A DNA stretch of 64,000 nt. Origin: Bacteroidales bacterium (GTDB taxonomy: Bacteria; Bacteroidota; Bacteroidia; Bacteroidales; Tenuifilaceae). The translations under genes were made by a program, and so were the position numbers. The first letter of the stretch is position 1, and each line of letters starts with the position of its first letter. Location: the NCBI GenBank assembly GCA_011045955.1, contig DSBV01000109.1, positions 1 through 64,000 on the forward strand. Direction: 5' to 3'. Below are positions 26,649 through 35,948 of the stretch, in pieces. The notes below the pieces were generated by a model that saw only the letters and a list, made by a program, of their open reading frames with translations, did not search any database and had not been told where the DNA came from.

Positions 26649-29600
26649 ATGCTACTAGATAACAAAACAAAGACAGAAGATAGCAAATTTTACAAAGTAT
26701 TCGACTTTATTAAAAATTATTCAGAAAAAGGTGAGCTTAATATTGTTACAGGATTTTTCTCCATTTATGCTTTGGCATTAATGAAAGAGGATATAAATCA
26801 AGTGAATAAAATCAGGTTGATTTTGGGGAATCTTGTGCAAGACGAACCTCAACTTAACAAAATTATCGACTTACTTAATGGCAACCCAGGTATTACAAAC
26901 ACATTATCTTTAAGTGCATCGGCAAAAAAAGCAGTAGAATTTCTACAACAGGACAAAGTTTTGGTTAAGACAATCAAGCGGAATTTTTGCCACGCCAAAG
27001 CATACATTTACAAAGACAAAGACCCAAGAAAAAATTTTCATATCATTGGAAGCTCTAATTTAACAGATGCCGGGCTTGGAATAAAAGATAGCAGTAATAT
27101 TGAACTTAATACCGCTTCGACAGGAAATGACAACGATTATAAAGAAATTAAAAAATGGTTCAATTATCAATGGGATAATATAGCTCAAGCTTATGTTGAA
27201 CTGCCCGATAAATCAAAAGTTGATGTAAAAAAACATTTGATTGAAATTATTACCAATCTTTACAAACCTTGGAAGCCGGAAGATTTATACTATAAAGTGC
27301 TTTACGAATTATTCAAAGACGACCTACTCACATTTTCGACCGATGCCGAATTCAACCGTGAAATGTCGCATTTAGAAGAAACCCTTATTTATAATACTTT
27401 ATACCCATACCAACAAAAAGGTGTAATAAGTTTAATTAAAATGCTTCAAAAATTAAACGGTGCCATTCTTGCCGATGCTGTTGGATTGGGAAAAACATGG
27501 ACTACTTTGGCAGTGATGAAATATTTTGAATCAAAAGGCTATACCGTAATAGTGTTTTGTCCTAAAAAATTACGTAATAATTGGGAGCAATACCAATCGC
27601 ACAGAGGCTCAAGATTCGAAAGAGACGAAATAGAATATATAGTTAGAAATCATACAGACCTACAAGATGATAGATTAACAACCAGTTATCCTGACTTCCC
27701 GCTTATTAAAATTCAACGAAAACAGAAACTGCTTATTGTAATTGACGAAAGTCATAATTTACGAAATGATAAATCGTCGCGTTACAAATTCTTAGTTGAT
27801 CATGTTTTAATGCCTGATAAAAAGAAACGAGATGTAAAGGTTTTGCTACTTTCGGCAACTCCTATCAACAACAAATTGATAGACATAAGGAACCAGTTTA
27901 AATTAATAACCAAAGGACAAGATGATGGTTTTAAAGATACTGAATTAGAAATTGAAAGTTTAGAAAACATTTTTAGGAATGTTCAAAAAGATTTTGCAGA
28001 ATGGGCAAATCAGGACAATAAGAAAATTTCTGATTTCACAAGCAAATTACCTATAAAATTTGAAAAATTAACCGATGCACTTATTGTTGCCCGAACAAGA
28101 AAATTAATTGAAGACATGTTCGGGAAAATGAGTTTCCCTAAAAAAGAAGCCCCCATCAATGAGTTTATCTCTCCTGAAAACATTGGCAACTTATCATCAT
28201 TCGACGATATACTCAATGCGTTAAGGGTAAACCTGACTGCTTATCGCCCATCGGAATACATGAAAAACTTAAAAATTGAAAGTGTTTTAGAAAATCCTCA
28301 ATTGCGCGAAAAGTTTTTGGTTAAAATGATGTATATCTTGCTAATTAAACGACTTGAATCGAGCTGGTATTCATTTAAGCTTACTGTCGAAAACATTTTG
28401 AATCATCACACCAATGCATTACAAAAAGTTCAAGAATTTATTAAAACAAAACAAGATGCCACTATTGATAACGAACTTTCAAATGATGTGCAAGAAGACA
28501 TTGAAGACACAGCAGCAGAATTGAACACTGACGAAGAACAAGTAACATTCGGTAAAAAGAATCCGGTTGCCTTATCCTCGATAACTGATATCGAACTTTT
28601 TAAAAAACACCTCGAAGCCGATATTGAAAAGCTCAAAATACTAAAAGAAAATCTGGATAGTTTCGAAAAAGATTTTAACGAAAAAAAGATTAACGACCCC
28701 AAATTAAGTAAACTCATCGAGCACATCAAAACAAAACAAAAAGGCGGTAACAAAAAAATTTTAATTTTTACTGTTTTTAAAGACACTGCAAAATTCTTAT
28801 ACGAACAATTGAAAAAATGGGACATTAAAAACCTGGCTTATGTTTCAGGATCGATGAGCGAAACCATTGATGGTTATACAGGCGAAAAATTTGAAATCAT
28901 ACTTGAACGATTTGCTCCATATACCAAACTTTACCTTGAAAAAGATTGGACCGAGCTATATGAAAAAGCAAATCTCAGCCATGCGTTTAAAGAAGGAGAA
29001 AAATGGAACGTACCGTACGAAAAATGGCTGGAGCTTATTAAAAAATACGATAAAGTAACACTGAAAAAAATCGAAGCTCCTATTGATGTACTTATAGCAA
29101 CCGACTGTTTAAGCGAGGGGCAAAACTTACAAGATTGCGATACCGTTGTAAACTACGATATACATTGGAATCCGGTGCGGCTTATTCAGCGTATGGGGCG
29201 AATTGACCGACTGGGTTCTCCCAATAAAACTATTCGTGGCATAAACTTCTGGCCGGCAAAAAACTACGAAGATTATTTGCAATTAAAATCGAGGGTCGAA
29301 AATCGCATGGCACTTATGAGCGTTGTTGGTACTGAAATGGAAGAAAATCTATCGCCTGAATTTCAAAAAATAATTGAAGATAATCCGTTGTTACCAAAGC
29401 AAGCTCAAAAAATGCTCGACCAATTGCAAATAACCTGGGATGATATTGAAGTTAACACCGAAACACTTGGGCTAAATGACCTATCGCTTGAGCAGTTCAG
29501 ACAAGAATTGTACGAGTTTTTCAAAAAAAACGAAGAGTTTTTTACAAAAATGCCCAATGGTGTATTTACAGGGTTTAAATTTAAGCCCAGCCGGAATTGG

Positions 29601-30020
29601 AAAGCAATACCCGATAGTATTGTAGCCGTTCTGGGCTATCCCAAACGACCCGACGAGGTTACCAACCACGTTTACGAAGAAATATATCTTCTGCATCGAG
29701 CTATAGATGATAAAGCAAATGGAGTTTTGTTGAATAACAATCAGGAAATTCTTGCTTTGTTGCGACACCACAAACTCGAACCCCGTTATGTTCCTGAAAA
29801 CATCGAAAATGCCGATAAAGACATCATTCAAAAACTATCCGATACTGTTTCGAACTGGGTTTATTCGCAAGCAATACCAGTAGCTGTTAACCAAATTCAA
29901 AATCTATTTACCGGCGAAGCAACGCTGAAAAATATTTCGCCAGAAAATATAAAACTTGAACAAAAGTTTAAACCCAATAATTTTGATTTAATCAACTGGT
30001 TTGTAATATCAAATAAGTAA
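26649..30020 (+). CDS. PLD-like nuclease domain fused to SNF2-type helicase (restriction/defence)
   Basis: N-terminal HAKAYIYKDKDP...IIGSSNLTDAG (PLDc); Walker A ADAVGLGKTWT; DESH; SATPINN; C-terminal helicase GRIDRLGS. Confidence 0.88.
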   Translation: MLLDNKTKTEDSKFYKVFDFIKNYSEKGELNIVTGFFSIYALALMKEDINQVNKIRLILGNLVQDEPQLNKIIDLLNGNPGITNTLSLSASAKKAVEFLQQDKVLVKTIKRNFCHAKAYIYKDKDPRKNFHIIGSSNLTDAGLGIKDSSNIELNTASTGNDNDYKEIKKWFNYQWDNIAQAYVELPDKSKVDVKKHLIEIITNLYKPWKPEDLYYKVLYELFKDDLLTFSTDAEFNREMSHLEETLIYNTLYPYQQKGVISLIKMLQKLNGAILADAVGLGKTWTTLAVMKYFESKGYTVIVFCPKKLRNNWEQYQSHRGSRFERDEIEYIVRNHTDLQDDRLTTSYPDFPLIKIQRKQKLLIVIDESHNLRNDKSSRYKFLVDHVLMPDKKKRDVKVLLLSATPINNKLIDIRNQFKLITKGQDDGFKDTELEIESLENIFRNVQKDFAEWANQDNKKISDFTSKLPIKFEKLTDALIVARTRKLIEDMFGKMSFPKKEAPINEFISPENIGNLSSFDDILNALRVNLTAYRPSEYMKNLKIESVLENPQLREKFLVKMMYILLIKRLESSWYSFKLTVENILNHHTNALQKVQEFIKTKQDATIDNELSNDVQEDIEDTAAELNTDEEQVTFGKKNPVALSSITDIELFKKHLEADIEKLKILKENLDSFEKDFNEKKINDPKLSKLIEHIKTKQKGGNKKILIFTVFKDTAKFLYEQLKKWDIKNLAYVSGSMSETIDGYTGEKFEIILERFAPYTKLYLEKDWTELYEKANLSHAFKEGEKWNVPYEKWLELIKKYDKVTLKKIEAPIDVLIATDCLSEGQNLQDCDTVVNYDIHWNPVRLIQRMGRIDRLGSPNKTIRGINFWPAKNYEDYLQLKSRVENRMALMSVVGTEMEENLSPEFQKIIEDNPLLPKQAQKMLDQLQITWDDIEVNTETLGLNDLSLEQFRQELYEFFKKNEEFFTKMPNGVFTGFKFKPSRNWKAIPDSIVAVLGYPKRPDEVTNHVYEEIYLLHRAIDDKANGVLLNNNQEILALLRHHKLEPRYVPENIENADKDIIQKLSDTVSNWVYSQAIPVAVNQIQNLFTGEATLKNISPENIKLEQKFKPNNFDLINWFVISNK

Positions 30021-30025
30021 GCCCT

Positions 30026-30976
30026 ATGGACCTTTCATTATTTAATACTGCTAATCTTTTCGAAGCTTCCACTCATCTTTTTCAGCAGTTGGGTATCAAG
30101 CTCAACTCAAATACAGCCGAAGCATTGCCAACAAAAAAATTGTTGAGTGGCTTTTACAAAGACAACGACACTTTTAATTCCATTATAAACACTTATTTTA
30201 TTGGAATTATTGACGATTCGGTGTTTCAAACAACTGGTAAAGGTGATGTTAAATACAGCATTCACGAGGTTTTGCATCCCGATTTTCATCAGGACGATAA
30301 CGGGTACAATGGGCTGATGATTTTTGCATTTGAGCTTACCAGAAAACCTACACGAACCGAAATATCTGAACTTACAAGGGCTTTTAATCGCATAAGCCAA
30401 AAAATGCCGGTAGCATTACTGTTAAAGTATCCTTCCGTATTGCCATCGGAAGGTAATGAAGCTCTTATTTCACTTGCCATTAGCGAACGATTCAAATATC
30501 TGCAACACTGGCGACAAGGCGAAAAAGTAGGGAAAATTATTATTCTAAAAGACATTGCTACATACCATACCCATGCCGGACATCAACGTATATTGCTCGA
30601 CCTTGTAAAACCAAGTGGAGTTACAAACTTTAAACAGCTTCATGCACATTGGTTACAGGTATTAGATGTAAACGTTCTGAACAAAAAATTCTTTAAGGAG
30701 ATTGCCAATTGGTACTTCTGGGCAAAGGATAAAGTGCAATTCCCTGACGATATTGAAAAAAACGAACAGGTTCGTAATGCCACCAACCTTATTCGCCTTA
30801 TTACTCGAATCATATTTATTTGGTTTATCAAAGAAAAAAATCTTGTACCTGCTGCATTGTTTGATAAAAAATACCTTTCTACCATTTTGAAAGATTTTAT
30901 GCAAACAAAAACTCTGACAATTATTACAAGGCCATATTGCAAAACCTCTTTTTTGGAACCCTCAACCAAAAAATGA
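30026..30976 (+). pseudogene. N-terminal part of Eco57I-type restriction-modification methylase, frameshifted relative to next ORF
   Basis: Reading on in the -1 frame after ~30907 gives KNSDNYYKAILQNLFFGTLNQK, continuous with the next ORF. Confidence 0.75.
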
Positions 30977-33900
30977 ATGAACGCAAATTTGCTAAAGACG
31001 ACAACATACAAACCAACAGAACCGAATACGGAGTAAAAAACCTGTACCGCTATGCCAATCTTTTTAAAATACCTGAACAAGAAGTGCTTAACTTATTTAA
31101 AGATATTCCGTTTTTAAATGGAGGTTTGTTCGACTGTTTGGACAAACCCAACGACGAGGACAAAATTATTTATGTGGACGGTTTTAGCCGCAATGCCAAA
31201 AAACAAGCTCACGTGCCCGATTATTTATTTTTTGACGACGGACAAGAAACTAAACTCAACGAAACTTACCAAACGTCAAACAATAGCTACAATTGCAAAG
31301 GACTGATAAACCTATTAGAAAGTTACAAATTTACCGTTGCCGAAAACACTCCCTTAGAAGAAGAAATTGCCCTCGACCCCGAATTGTTGGGTAAAGTATT
31401 TGAAGAACTATTGGCAAATTACAATCCCGAAACTCAAACCACTGCCCGCAAGCAAACCGGTAGTTTTTATACACCCCGCGAGATTGTTGACTATATGGTT
31501 GACGAATCGTTGCTCGAATACCTAAAAGGTGCCCTCAGCATCCCTGCTGACGGTGAAGATGATAACGATAGATTCTCTGCACACGAATTCTTCAACCCCA
31601 ACAACGAAATTCAAATTCATCAGGGGAATTTACCACACTGGCAACAAGAAAATGTTTGGTACTTTGTTACCTTTAGGCTGGCCGATTCCATCCCTACTGA
31701 AGTTGCTGAACAAATCAAGGTTGAGCGTGAAATATGGCTTAAAAATAACTCTAAGAATCCAAATAGCGAATACTCAAAGGAGCAACTCAAGGAGTATAAT
31801 AGGTTGTTTTCAGATAGAGTTGAAAAATTGCTCAACGATTACCATGGCAGTTGTATATTGAAAAACAAGGAAATCGCAAACATTGTTAAAAATGCAATAG
31901 AAAATTTTAATAATCAAAGATATTTGTTAGACGAATGGGTGATTATGCCTAATCATGTTCATATACTGGTTAAGCCCTTGGCTGAAAATAAACTATCCGA
32001 TATTTTACATTCATGGAAGTCGTTTACTGCCAACGAAATCAATAAAGCATTAAACAAAAAAGGTCAAGTATGGATGCACGAATCCTATGACCATATTGTA
32101 CGAAACGAACGTGCATTTCGAGCCATTAGAAATTACATTCGCCAAAATCCGGTAAAAGCAAAATTGGCAGAGGGTGAGTTTTTGATTTCTGAAAGTAAAG
32201 CTGAGAGGAGCAAGGATACTTCTGCTACCTTAGAACAACGATTACGCGACCTTCTCTCTTATTCCGAAAATTCCAATCCGTTTAACGAAGCCGAAACTCA
32301 ACAACTTATAGCAGCCATTAACAATTGCAAAATACTTGACCCTGCCTGCGGTTCGGGCGCATTCCCCATGGGTATTCTGCACAAAATGGTGCATATACTC
32401 CAAAAAATCGATCCTAATAACAAAAAATGGAAAGCACAGCAAAAAGAAAAAATTATTGGCGACCAAATTAAACAACTCGAAAATGACAAAAAAGCTATTG
32501 AGGGCTTAAGCGATAAAGCCGTAAGAGAAAAGGCTATTCAAGCCGTAGACGAACGACTTAAAGAAATTAGAGAAATTTTTGAAAGCAAAAACTATTTCGA
32601 CGACTACGCACGTAAACTCTACCTGATTGAAAACTGCATTTATGGCATTGACATACAGCCCATAGCCGTGCAAATTGCTAAACTGCGATTTTTTATTTCG
32701 CTGATTATCGACCAGGACAAAGATCCTACTCAAGAAAATCTCGGTTTTCGCTCTTTGCCCAACCTCGAAACTAAATTTGTAGCCGCCAATACCCTCATTG
32801 GTTTAGATAAACCGCAACAATTCGCTATTCGAAATCCCCAAATAGATGAAACAGAAAAACAACTCAAACAGCTACGACACGAGTATTTTACAGCCAACAC
32901 CCGAAAAAAGAAACTTAAACTTCAGGCTAAGGACAAAAATCTACGAAAACAAATTGCAGAACTACTAAAAAACGACGGCTGGCCCAGCTTAGTTGCCGAA
33001 CAAATTTCAAGCTTCGACCCGTACGACCAAAACCACTTTGCCAACTGGTTCGACCCCGAATGGATGTTTGGACACGACCTAAAAAACGGTTTTGATATTG
33101 TTATTGGTAACCCGCCGTACATTCAACTTCAAAAAGCTTTTAATTACAAAAATAAGTATGCTGATTTATACAAAGACCAGAACTACAAAACCTTTGATAG
33201 AACCGGCGATATTTATTGCCTGTTCTACGAAAAAGGAATTCAACTGTTAAAAGAAAATGGTTTGCTTGCTTACATCACCTCCAACAAATGGATGCGAGCC
33301 GGCTATGGAGAAAAACTGCGGGAATTTTTTATTAAGCACAAGCCTTTGCAACTTGTTGATTTAGGTCCGGGCGTGTTTCAAAATGCAACTGTGGATACTA
33401 ATATTTTGATAATACAAAAATTTGCCTCCAGAGTCTCTGCTGAAGTTTCATCCCCTAGCAAAGATGCTTCAGATACTTTAGCTGTTACTCTACAAAAAGA
33501 GGATAAAGATGACATTACCAAAGCATTGACCGAAAAAGGCGTGCGGCTTACCAAACTTACAAAAGATGCTTGGTTTATAGGAAGCGATGCTGAACAGAAG
33601 CTTAAAGCAAAAATAGAGAAAATTGGCAAACCCCTGAAAGAATGGGATGTGAAAATTTATCGTGGTGTATTAACTGGTTTAAACAAAGCCTTTATCATTA
33701 CCACCGAAAAACGGGATGAAATACTAAATAATTGCCAAGACGAGGACGAACGCATCCGCACCGAAGCCATCATCAAGCCCATCTTGCGAGGCAGAGACAT
33801 TAAACGTTACCATTACCAGTGGGCAGGTTTGTGGGTGATTTTTATCCCTTGGCATTTTCCATTACACGAAGATTTAACTATTCAGGGGACAAGCGAAAAA

Positions 33901-34473
33901 GCAGAAAAAGAATTTCAAAAGAAATATCCCTCAATTTATCATCACTTATTACAATTTAAAGATGCTCTATCAAAAAGGAACAAAGAAGAAACAGGTATAA
34001 GATATGAGTGGTATGCAATGCAAAGATGTGCCGCAACCTACTACCCCGAGTTTGAGAAGGAGAAGGTGGCATTTAAAGCAGTTGGAAAGAACTTAACATT
34101 TTCATTATTTAAGCCAGGAACAATGATTAGTGCACCAGCATCTTTTATGACTTCAAATTTTAATAAATATATTTTAGGACTATTATGTTCGTCATTTACA
34201 TTCTATTTTGTTTTAAAGAATGCTGATAAAACTGGAGCTGGTGATGTAATGCTCAATGTACAGTCGTTTCAGAAAATTCCCCTTCCCCCCATCACATCAA
34301 CCACTGAGCCCATCGTAAATCAAATAGAGGCTTTGGTGGATAAAATTTTAGAGGCAAAAAAGCAAAACCCAGAAGCCGACACCCGCCAGCGGGAAAAAGA
34401 AATAGACCAGCTGGTTTATAAACTATATGATTTAACAGAGGAGGAAATAAAAATAATAGAAGGAGGGGAATGA
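30937..34473 (+). CDS. Eco57I-type DNA methylase (C-terminal part) with embedded RAYT domain
   Basis: GSFYTPREIVDYMVDESLLEYL; ILDPACGSGAFPMGILHKMVH; DIVIGNPPYIQ. Confidence 0.88.
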   Translation: MQNLFFGTLNQKMNERKFAKDDNIQTNRTEYGVKNLYRYANLFKIPEQEVLNLFKDIPFLNGGLFDCLDKPNDEDKIIYVDGFSRNAKKQAHVPDYLFFDDGQETKLNETYQTSNNSYNCKGLINLLESYKFTVAENTPLEEEIALDPELLGKVFEELLANYNPETQTTARKQTGSFYTPREIVDYMVDESLLEYLKGALSIPADGEDDNDRFSAHEFFNPNNEIQIHQGNLPHWQQENVWYFVTFRLADSIPTEVAEQIKVEREIWLKNNSKNPNSEYSKEQLKEYNRLFSDRVEKLLNDYHGSCILKNKEIANIVKNAIENFNNQRYLLDEWVIMPNHVHILVKPLAENKLSDILHSWKSFTANEINKALNKKGQVWMHESYDHIVRNERAFRAIRNYIRQNPVKAKLAEGEFLISESKAERSKDTSATLEQRLRDLLSYSENSNPFNEAETQQLIAAINNCKILDPACGSGAFPMGILHKMVHILQKIDPNNKKWKAQQKEKIIGDQIKQLENDKKAIEGLSDKAVREKAIQAVDERLKEIREIFESKNYFDDYARKLYLIENCIYGIDIQPIAVQIAKLRFFISLIIDQDKDPTQENLGFRSLPNLETKFVAANTLIGLDKPQQFAIRNPQIDETEKQLKQLRHEYFTANTRKKKLKLQAKDKNLRKQIAELLKNDGWPSLVAEQISSFDPYDQNHFANWFDPEWMFGHDLKNGFDIVIGNPPYIQLQKAFNYKNKYADLYKDQNYKTFDRTGDIYCLFYEKGIQLLKENGLLAYITSNKWMRAGYGEKLREFFIKHKPLQLVDLGPGVFQNATVDTNILIIQKFASRVSAEVSSPSKDASDTLAVTLQKEDKDDITKALTEKGVRLTKLTKDAWFIGSDAEQKLKAKIEKIGKPLKEWDVKIYRGVLTGLNKAFIITTEKRDEILNNCQDEDERIRTEAIIKPILRGRDIKRYHYQWAGLWVIFIPWHFPLHEDLTIQGTSEKAEKEFQKKYPSIYHHLLQFKDALSKRNKEETGIRYEWYAMQRCAATYYPEFEKEKVAFKAVGKNLTFSLFKPGTMISAPASFMTSNFNKYILGLLCSSFTFYFVLKNADKTGAGDVMLNVQSFQKIPLPPITSTTEPIVNQIEALVDKILEAKKQNPEADTRQREKEIDQLVYKLYDLTEEEIKIIEGGE
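31537..32229 (+). mobile_element. In-frame REP-associated tyrosine transposase (RAYT / Y1_Tnp) sequence inside the methylase
   Basis: GNLPHWQQENVWYFVTFRLADS...LDEWVIMPNHVHILVKPL...LSDILHSWKSFTANEINK...FRAIRNYIRQNPVKAKL. Confidence 0.85.
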
Positions 34474-34504: not shown

Positions 34505-34564
34505 ATGAAAGTTTTATTAGATACAAATATCATCACTCATCGAGAAACCATTTATTTCTTTTGA
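34505..34564 (+). pseudogene. Truncated PIN-domain gene (N-terminal fragment)
   Basis: MKVLLDTNIITHRETIYFF*, the beta1/first-Asp signature of PIN proteins, then stop and repeats. Confidence 0.6.
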
Positions 34565-34708
34565 CCAAATTGAGGGGTAAAAAATTGTCTTTTTTTGACC
34601 AAGTGAAAAAAAAGAAATAATAATTATTTGTATGTCAATAACTTTTATTGACCAAAATACGGGGTAAAAAATCGTCTTTTTTTAGACCAAGTGAAAAAAA
34701 GAAATAGC
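34551..34708. repeat. Pair of imperfect ~60-bp direct repeats with an internal inverted repeat
   Basis: TTGACCAAATTGAGGGGTAAAAAATTGTCTTTTTTTGACCAAGTG at 34561 and a near-copy at 34649; TTATTTCTTTT/AAAAGAAATAA. Confidence 0.7.
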
Positions 34709-34871: not shown

Positions 34872-35948
34872 TTACTTTTCATTCGTAAAGGTTTCAATCC
34901 TTAATTCTAAATTCAATTTCTCATTAATTTCTTTGAGGACAGCAATTTTTTCTTTTGTCGACGTATGAACCATAATCCAATATTTTCCGATTTTGTGCTG
35001 GTTGTAAAAGTCGTCTTTGGTCTCAGATACTATCGGTACTCCCGCACGATATATGTTTAATGGTAAAACTTTTTCGGGTCCTATTTTTTTAATTGTCTCA
35101 ACGAATGTGTCAACAACTTTTTGGTTCTTAATTACAGTTTTGTCAGGAAATGTAACTGATATTTTTTCTCGTATTTTAGTTTTTTTATGTCTTTTAAAAA
35201 TCACATCTTCAACTTCTGTAAATTCCGTCTTTGTTTCGGATGAGCCATTTTCATCAGCTTTTTCTTCTTCCTCCATTTCGGTTAATTCAAAAAGCTCTTC
35301 AATTTTCGCTTTTGTAAAGGTTTTTAAGTCGTTAGAGTCAATTTTGAATGTCGGTTCGATAGATTTTATTTTTTTTAAAAGTTTTTGTGATATTATTTCC
35401 ACTATACAATCGGGTGACTTAATCAATGCGTTCCAACTACTGTCGAGCAACTTGCTTTTTTTCAACAATGTGTCTAAAGTGTCGATATTGGAATACGCAA
35501 ATGACGATAAATTTCTTGCCACATATTCTATTTTATCGGATTCAATGTCAACTTGCCAAACAATTCTATCTTTTGGGTTTTTCTCAAAAGTTTTGAATAG
35601 TAACCATTTTACTCCATTTGTCAGAACACCAAAGTCAATTCCTGATTTGAAACAATAATTTGCAAGTTGGTCAATAATTTTTTTATCTTGCAAGTCAATT
35701 GATAAATTCTTTGCTTCAACAATCAAAGTTGTTTTACCATTTTTTAAAAGAGTGTAGTCAGGTATTTTACCGTCTTCGTCAGGAGCATTCGGTCTTACAA
35801 ATTCTGGATTAGCAGTTTTCCACCCAAGCGCATTCAAAATTGGCTCAATTAATTGAGTTCTAACTGCTTGTTCGTTTGAAATATAGTTTATCCGAAATTC
35901 AACAACTTTTTCAATTATCTCTTTTAATTTGTTTTCAATTTCTTTCAT
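34872..35948 (-). CDS. Type I restriction HsdR N-terminal-like nuclease domain protein
   Basis: EPILNALGWKTANPEFVRPNAPDEDGKIPDYTLLKNGKTTLIVEAKN (D...ExK-type core). Confidence 0.8.
   Translation of the reverse strand: MKEIENKLKEIIEKVVEFRINYISNEQAVRTQLIEPILNALGWKTANPEFVRPNAPDEDGKIPDYTLLKNGKTTLIVEAKNLSIDLQDKKIIDQLANYCFKSGIDFGVLTNGVKWLLFKTFEKNPKDRIVWQVDIESDKIEYVARNLSSFAYSNIDTLDTLLKKSKLLDSSWNALIKSPDCIVEIISQKLLKKIKSIEPTFKIDSNDLKTFTKAKIEELFELTEMEEEEKADENGSSETKTEFTEVEDVIFKRHKKTKIREKISVTFPDKTVIKNQKVVDTFVETIKKIGPEKVLPLNIYRAGVPIVSETKDDFYNQHKIGKYWIMVHTSTKEKIAVLKEINEKLNLELRIETFTNEK

Follow-up and report, generated by a model that had tools for sequence, protein, structure and literature searches.

We consider it probable that a type IIG-like methylase hosts a REPtron, that is, the gene of a REP-associated tyrosine transposase (RAYT, a Y1 HUH transposase) bracketed by inverted REP hairpins, and that this element keeps the reading frame, occupies a permissive surface loop and is translated together with its host as an inner domain. 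The methylase gene comes from a member of the Bacteroidales (Tenuifilaceae; assembly GCA_011045955.1) and lies within the first 64,000 nucleotides of contig DSBV01000109.1, hereafter the window. The evidence presented here consists throughout of sequence comparison and structure prediction.

The host gene and its neighborhood

The methylase ORF encodes 1178 aa and is stop-free from one end to the other, including both RAYT junctions, as the original prediction had stated (Table 1). Within this one chain, Pfam places Eco57I (PF07669, 1.1e-39), N6_Mtase (2.1e-15) and Y1_Tnp (PF01797, 5e-9, aa 312-404), the last of these above the Pfam cut-off. Alignments confirm methylase motif I and NPPY alongside the Eco57I domain, and a TaqI_C specificity domain falls just below its cut-off (25.1 bits against 26.5). 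The insert spans aa 198-431 (nt 31528-32229) and occupies the loop that joins the YTPREIV helix to methylase motif I, with the helix GSFYTPREIVDYMVDESLLEYLK on its left and LEQRLRDLLSYSE...ILDPACGSGAF on its right. Of the bounds proposed earlier (31537-32229) the right one holds; the left one has to be moved about 10 bases upstream, and degenerate REPs bound the insert at both ends.

The earlier reading had overlooked that the N-terminus of the methylase is encoded in another frame, parted from the main ORF by an A-run whose length is off by one base. This stretch is read through in all five relatives checked (L003, L004, L011, L020 and L111), and the frameshift in the window may stem either from misassembly or from a genuine mutation. 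A Pfam scan of the N-terminal part returned no domain, and hence no nuclease match there. The adjoining PLD/SNF2 helicase accompanies the methylase in both inserted and empty relatives; as it is 83% identical to its counterpart in L004, the two-gene helicase/methylase system seems to have been swapped between lineages. Adjoining the pair, a 358-aa protein of the HSDR_N type (restriction enzyme R-like) is encoded on the minus strand at 34872-35948. Two tandem 71-nt repeats (GGGGTAAAAAATYGTCTTTTTTT...) lie shortly 3' of the methylase at 34549-34706 and were not found elsewhere in the genome.

Table 1. Features of the methylase locus in the window (all on the plus strand).
Feature	Position	Strand	Basis
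Partner gene, PLD + SNF2 helicase	26649..30020	+	Pfam; PADLOC C3a139 HKD+Snf2
Methylase N-terminal ~300 aa, frame differs from remainder	30026..30976	+	L003, L004, L011, L020, L111 have one frame there
A-run with one-base frame shift	30901..30912	+	frames compared with relatives
Type IIG-like Eco57I methylase ORF with embedded RAYT (TTG start merely formal)	30937..34473	+	ORF list, Pfam, PADLOC REase_MTase_IIG 6.6e-141
Conserved helix directly before insert	31459..31527	+	alignments
Left REP-like hairpin, in-frame translation	31531..31554	+	folding z -1.6 (decayed) vs L003 z -6.5
RAYT (Y1 HUH transposase) domain	31588..32190	+	Pfam, NCBIfam, alignment, predicted fold
HUH motif PNHVHIL	31948..31968	+	alignment, translated ORF
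Candidate catalytic Tyr, aa 400, YIRQNP	32134..32136	+	alignment, translated ORF
Right REP-like hairpin, inverted relative to left, translated SKDTSAT	32206..32230	+	folding z -0.8 (decayed)
Methylase motif I, ILDPACGSGAF	32332..32364	+	alignments, translated ORF
Methylase motif IV, NPPY	33109..33120	+	alignments, translated ORF
Second REP-like in-frame insertion, ~12 extra aa SRVSAEVSSPSKDASDTLAVT, near specificity region	33427..33489	+	alignment; DNA resembles L003 right REP

The embedded RAYT domain

The isolated domain passes the NCBIfam model for REP-associated tyrosine transposases (NF047646; 80.8 bits against a cut-off of 80), and its predicted structure (mean pLDDT 87.7) has the E. coli RAYT 4er8 as best match (Foldseek E 8.1e-7). 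Together with the Pfam domains in one chain, this bears out the claim that a RAYT is embedded in frame in an Eco57I-type methylase. The fusion fragment was modeled with low overall confidence (pLDDT 60); the model matches a BREX PglX or CamA-type methylase across both sides of the insert and 4er8 over the insert itself (Z 12.8), and tentatively suggests that a methylase fold is retained across the insert in addition to the RAYT domain.

The HUH motif and the candidate catalytic tyrosine are present as described before: NHVH covers aa 339-342, with the HUH histidines at aa 340 and 342, and the tyrosine is aa 400. In an alignment of 34 RAYT sequences H127 and H129 are invariant. One homolog (L111, genome G272) has a histidine at the tyrosine position (KHIRENP), the rest of its RAYT domain being conserved. 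Set against the subclass 2.4 motifs NH[IFV]H, WQ and YIxNNP (PMC6006769), the window sequence has NHVH, WM in place of WQ, and YIRQNP; its tyrosine motif is closer to that of subclass 2.7 (YI[LR][NQ]NP) than to that of 2.4. The element is a multiple of three in length, and its transposase frame is free of stops from end to end. In each genome searched, the embedded RAYT is the sole close copy; a search for RAYT carriers among phages gave none, and one among plasmids three matches, all distant. Pfam scans of the window and of the embedded homologs found no Hint splicing domain.

Start codons are scarce in front of the embedded RAYTs. ATG, GTG and TTG are all absent from the 22 codons preceding the conserved LPHW in the window, and over the same distance the window RAYT family has ATG in none of eight members and TTG in one. 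Across all families, no start codon lies nearby in 18/29 embedded RAYTs as against 6/31 free-standing ones, counts that are rough because the motifs were located by regular expression. As start codons are mostly absent, the RAYT would appear to be produced solely within the host chain.

REP-like hairpins at the ends of the insert

Hairpins resembling REPs stand at both ends. In relatives, the left one takes forms such as GTACC-GTCAGC-ATCCCT-GCTGAC-GG, and the right one, in inverted orientation, forms such as CAGAAGC-AAGGAT-GCTTCTG-ATAC; those of L003 fold with z scores of -6.5 and -5.1 relative to shuffles. The window hairpins are decayed, if still recognizable, and are translated in frame (SIPADGE... 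and ...SKDTSAT). The REP foot is GTAC, GTAT, GTAG or GTGC, compared with the strict GTAG/GTGG of RAYT REPs. L002 carries four tandem REP copies within tnpA, all of them in frame.

Close matches to the right REP, the end that was scanned for in five genomes including that of the window (G000), are confined to the RAYT-bearing methylase gene; the few others differ by two mismatches, and no clear copies of a genome-wide population outside the host gene were seen. The second REP-like insertion of the window is absent from six RAYT-bearing relatives. Given the decayed REPs and the frameshifted methylase N-terminus, the window copy may no longer be active, though its transposase domain itself is intact.

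The same loop in related methylases

The methylase set comprised about 30 relatives from GTDB genomes, plus two from the genome samples described below, L111 (G272, Bacteroidota) and L184 (G1268, Planctomycetota sample). Compared at this one position, seven relatives are filled by a RAYT (L002-L005, L008, L111 and L184) and about 25 are empty, most of the GTDB relatives having a short linker there. The carriers come from independent assemblies and include a named isolate, Flavobacterium branchiophilum NBRC 15030. A fusion found in no other genome, combined with lost catalytic residues, had been named as the mark of a decaying chance insertion, and this is not what the comparison returned.

The loop also receives other inserts. 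In L017, L020 and L029 the place of the RAYT is taken by a domain resembling the DUF559 nuclease (PF04480, 1e-28 to 1e-31), flanked by translated palindromes, for example LTPALSEGEG; these PD-(D/E)XK-like domains lie in frame at L020:6589-7167, L029:3083-3697 and L017:5759-6403. The loop of L025 (SQVVIAREERPKQSASNDEIASPAARSDVEEKLR) holds a bare palindromic repeat of the CGTC/GTCATTGCGAGG type in frame, with no nuclease. The occurrence of RAYT, DUF559 and bare repeat at one loop points to a landing site for several palindromic elements, and from its sequence the DUF559 domain with its palindromes resembles a mobile element of another translated class, of which we found no description in the open-access literature searched.

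Selection and spread of the insert

The RAYTs of methylases are mostly 64-78% identical to each other, and synonymous divergence between pairs is mostly saturated. Where measurable, dN/dS of the RAYT is 0.06-0.16, as low as that of the methylase; strong purifying selection acts on the embedded RAYTs. A recent in-frame transposition, as had been suggested for the window, does not agree with relatives at saturated synonymous divergence that hold a RAYT at the equivalent site under such selection.

When the insert is excluded from the methylase tree, RAYT-bearing members are scattered, requiring 6-7 changes and showing no clustering relative to shuffles, and forcing them into one clade is rejected (dlnL 215, p-AU 8.7e-105). 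As the RAYT-bearing methylases do not form one clade, we conclude from the trees that the insert has passed from methylase to methylase, through either homing driven by the RAYT or ordinary recombination. The methylase-borne RAYTs group together (87/94), apart from the free-standing RAYTs, and the trees of the RAYT and of the methylase N-part reject each other (p-AU 9e-8 and 0.002). However, tree tests also place the N and C parts of the methylase in mutual conflict, so that recombination within methylase genes could yield such a mosaic without RAYT activity.

The pair L002 and L005 bears on the same question. Its synonymous divergence is 0.22 in the RAYT as compared to 0.67 and 1.39 in the flanks, and codon identity peaks inside the RAYT. 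We considered this peak as proof of a co-conversion tract, but empty methylases too have a conserved core and variable ends, which makes the identity profile alone weak evidence; what remains after this comparison is the synonymous excess inside the RAYT.

Other host proteins

To the methylase set we added samples of 395 Bacteroidota and 343 Planctomycetota genomes, many of them metagenome-assembled. A repeat draw of Bacteroidota genomes gave an identical set and indicated only that the window is of this phylum. For Planctomycetota and Nitrospirota, each group was reached via one named locus (L016 and L018), on which the phylum names rest. Among the Bacteroidota, every long-ORF host of a related RAYT that was identified is a defense enzyme: HsdR, with the RAYT between nuclease and helicase (L112, L113, L035), HmaB/DUF1156 (L114, L116), a different DUF1156 site (L115) and PglXI (L110). 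An association with defense alone, which looked complete in this phylum, was rejected on the Planctomycetota sample. There, the hosts include housekeeping enzymes. AlaRS has the insert at a single fixed site in three genomes (L186, L190, L191), and a FabZ-like dehydratase has it at a fixed site of its own in at least nine (L155, L159, L170-L172, L174, L176, L177, L197). PurH (L193) has MGS on the N-terminal side of the insert and AICARFT on the C-terminal side; the remainder are the linker of an FAD monooxygenase/old-yellow-enzyme protein (L185), a helicase resembling DinG (L192) and MoeA, at its N-terminus (L196). Further hosts are DNA methylases (L187, L188, L189, L195, L203, and L153 from Nitrospirota).

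In AlaRS, PurH, the FabZ-like enzyme, HsdR, HmaB, PglX and others, host domains are recognized on both sides of the RAYT; L194, L201 and L202, long frames in high-GC genomes with no host recognizable on both sides, were left out. G1147 and G1168 each have a single PF01411 match, the RAYT-bearing alaS, and this essential enzyme thus apparently works with its insert, as far as gene content can tell; some of the metagenome-assembled genomes are incomplete, and the statement is no better than those assemblies. In the FabZ-like family, host part and RAYT part are both under purifying selection. The L155 host has TGAMLLS and SGAMLLA flanking the RAYT on its two sides, as if the target had been partly duplicated upon insertion. 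A RAYT embedded in a PLD helicase, as considered for L007, was not supported; L007:3-1310 combines a RAYT, N-terminal translated repeats (TQASQPDTAAQASQPE) and a fused 206-aa tail homologous to a gene found beside other Eco57I methylases.

Proposed mechanism and alternatives

For the REPtron in the methylase loop we propose that the RAYT would fold as a separate HUH domain and leave the host enzyme working. Homing-like transfer would carry the element to the equivalent loop in other methylases, either through cutting of REP/target single strands by the RAYT or through recombination via the conserved flanks, and in-frame copies in tolerant loops would escape purging. An equivalent lifestyle is found in AlaRS, the FabZ-like enzyme, PurH, HsdR, HmaB and PglX. 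A more far-reaching version, which we offer tentatively and hold at somewhat less than an even chance, describes an intein-like homing class without splicing, in which RAYT/REP elements enter fixed loops of essential or defense proteins, lose their own start and stop, are expressed only as host-internal domains and home actively to empty alleles by HUH chemistry, with DUF559 and its palindromes as a parallel second class at the methylase loop.

Active homing is what a passive history would dispense with: one or a few ancient insertions might have become fixed in methylases, the RAYT now depending for its spread solely on homologous recombination and on horizontal movement of the defense gene, with no current transposase activity. 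The mutual conflict of the methylase N and C parts, the travel of RM genes between phyla, the decayed window REPs and a right-REP pattern without clear genomic copies elsewhere all fit such hitch-hiking. Yet catalytic residues and low dN/dS have been retained across saturated divergence, the RAYT of L002 and L005 is younger than its adjoining flanks, and RAYTs have entered many unrelated proteins, so that we think this history rather unlikely. Still less probable is a domesticated module, a HUH nuclease recruited into defense methylases, for instance for cutting hairpin or single-stranded phage DNA recognized by the enzyme. The original prediction had raised such an addition to an RM enzyme; it is possible as such, and both the strong purifying selection and the defense character of all identified Bacteroidota hosts (type IIG, HsdR, PglX, HmaB, DUF1156) speak for it, but a fusion specific to RM is not favored given a patchy presence on the methylase tree, outside any one clade, and related RAYTs held equally by AlaRS, FabZ-like, PurH and FAD/OYE enzymes. 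Moreover, a DUF559 nuclease or bare repeats fill the RAYT loop in other methylases, and L111 lacks the tyrosine. As for a recent, decaying chance insertion or an assembly artefact, the upstream frameshift in the window gene and its decayed REPs could be so explained, but seven relatives in independent assemblies, the Flavobacterium isolate among them, share the site, and the purifying selection on the RAYT makes this account very improbable.

Relation to known systems

The element resembles the known TnpA_REP/RAYT REPtrons (PMC6006769, PMC3733652) in its HUH and tyrosine motifs, its 4er8 fold, its inverted REP-like hairpins with a mostly GTA-type foot and the presence of REPs in frame within tnpA itself, the latter known from subclass 2.4, where REPs lie inside the gene and in frame (PMC6006769). 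It differs in that the entire tnpA with its REPs is in frame inside the coding sequence of another protein, own start and stop being mostly absent. Short in-frame REPs are known in coding genes, including those of tRNA synthetases and DNA-repair enzymes (PMC3733652); these too are palindromic and lie in protein loops with frame and function kept, but they are 20-40 bp palindromes or clusters of at most 82 aa without a transposase, whereas here a catalytic transposase of about 230 aa is added. The Rickettsia palindromic elements (RPEs, cited in PMC3733652) share the unspliced in-frame insertion into many different genes; they encode no transposase and have many copies per genome, in contrast to close right-REP copies confined to one gene. 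With inteins and homing endonuclease genes the element has in common a nuclease-coding insert, a conserved site, essential or DNA-processing hosts and a patchy distribution on the host-gene tree; unlike them, it has no Hint domain and stays in the protein, and HUH/Tyr takes the place of LAGLIDADG or HNH.

In the open-access literature, to which our search was confined, no entire RAYT nested within another protein had been described, and unexpectedly long RAYT proteins have been discarded as gene fusions or annotation errors (PMC6006769). Short in-frame REPs being already known, a whole RAYT inside the coding sequence of another protein is apparently an undescribed form, and embedded RAYTs would explain such misannotated "fusion" proteins. 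Complete transposase genes, beyond short palindromes, can on this evidence be maintained inside apparently working enzymes as domains translated with them, which offers a possible answer to the open question of how single-copy "domesticated" RAYTs are expressed and maintained. Embedded RAYTs would also mark natural permissive loops of enzymes, of use in protein engineering, and they suggest a non-splicing route of homing in coding DNA.
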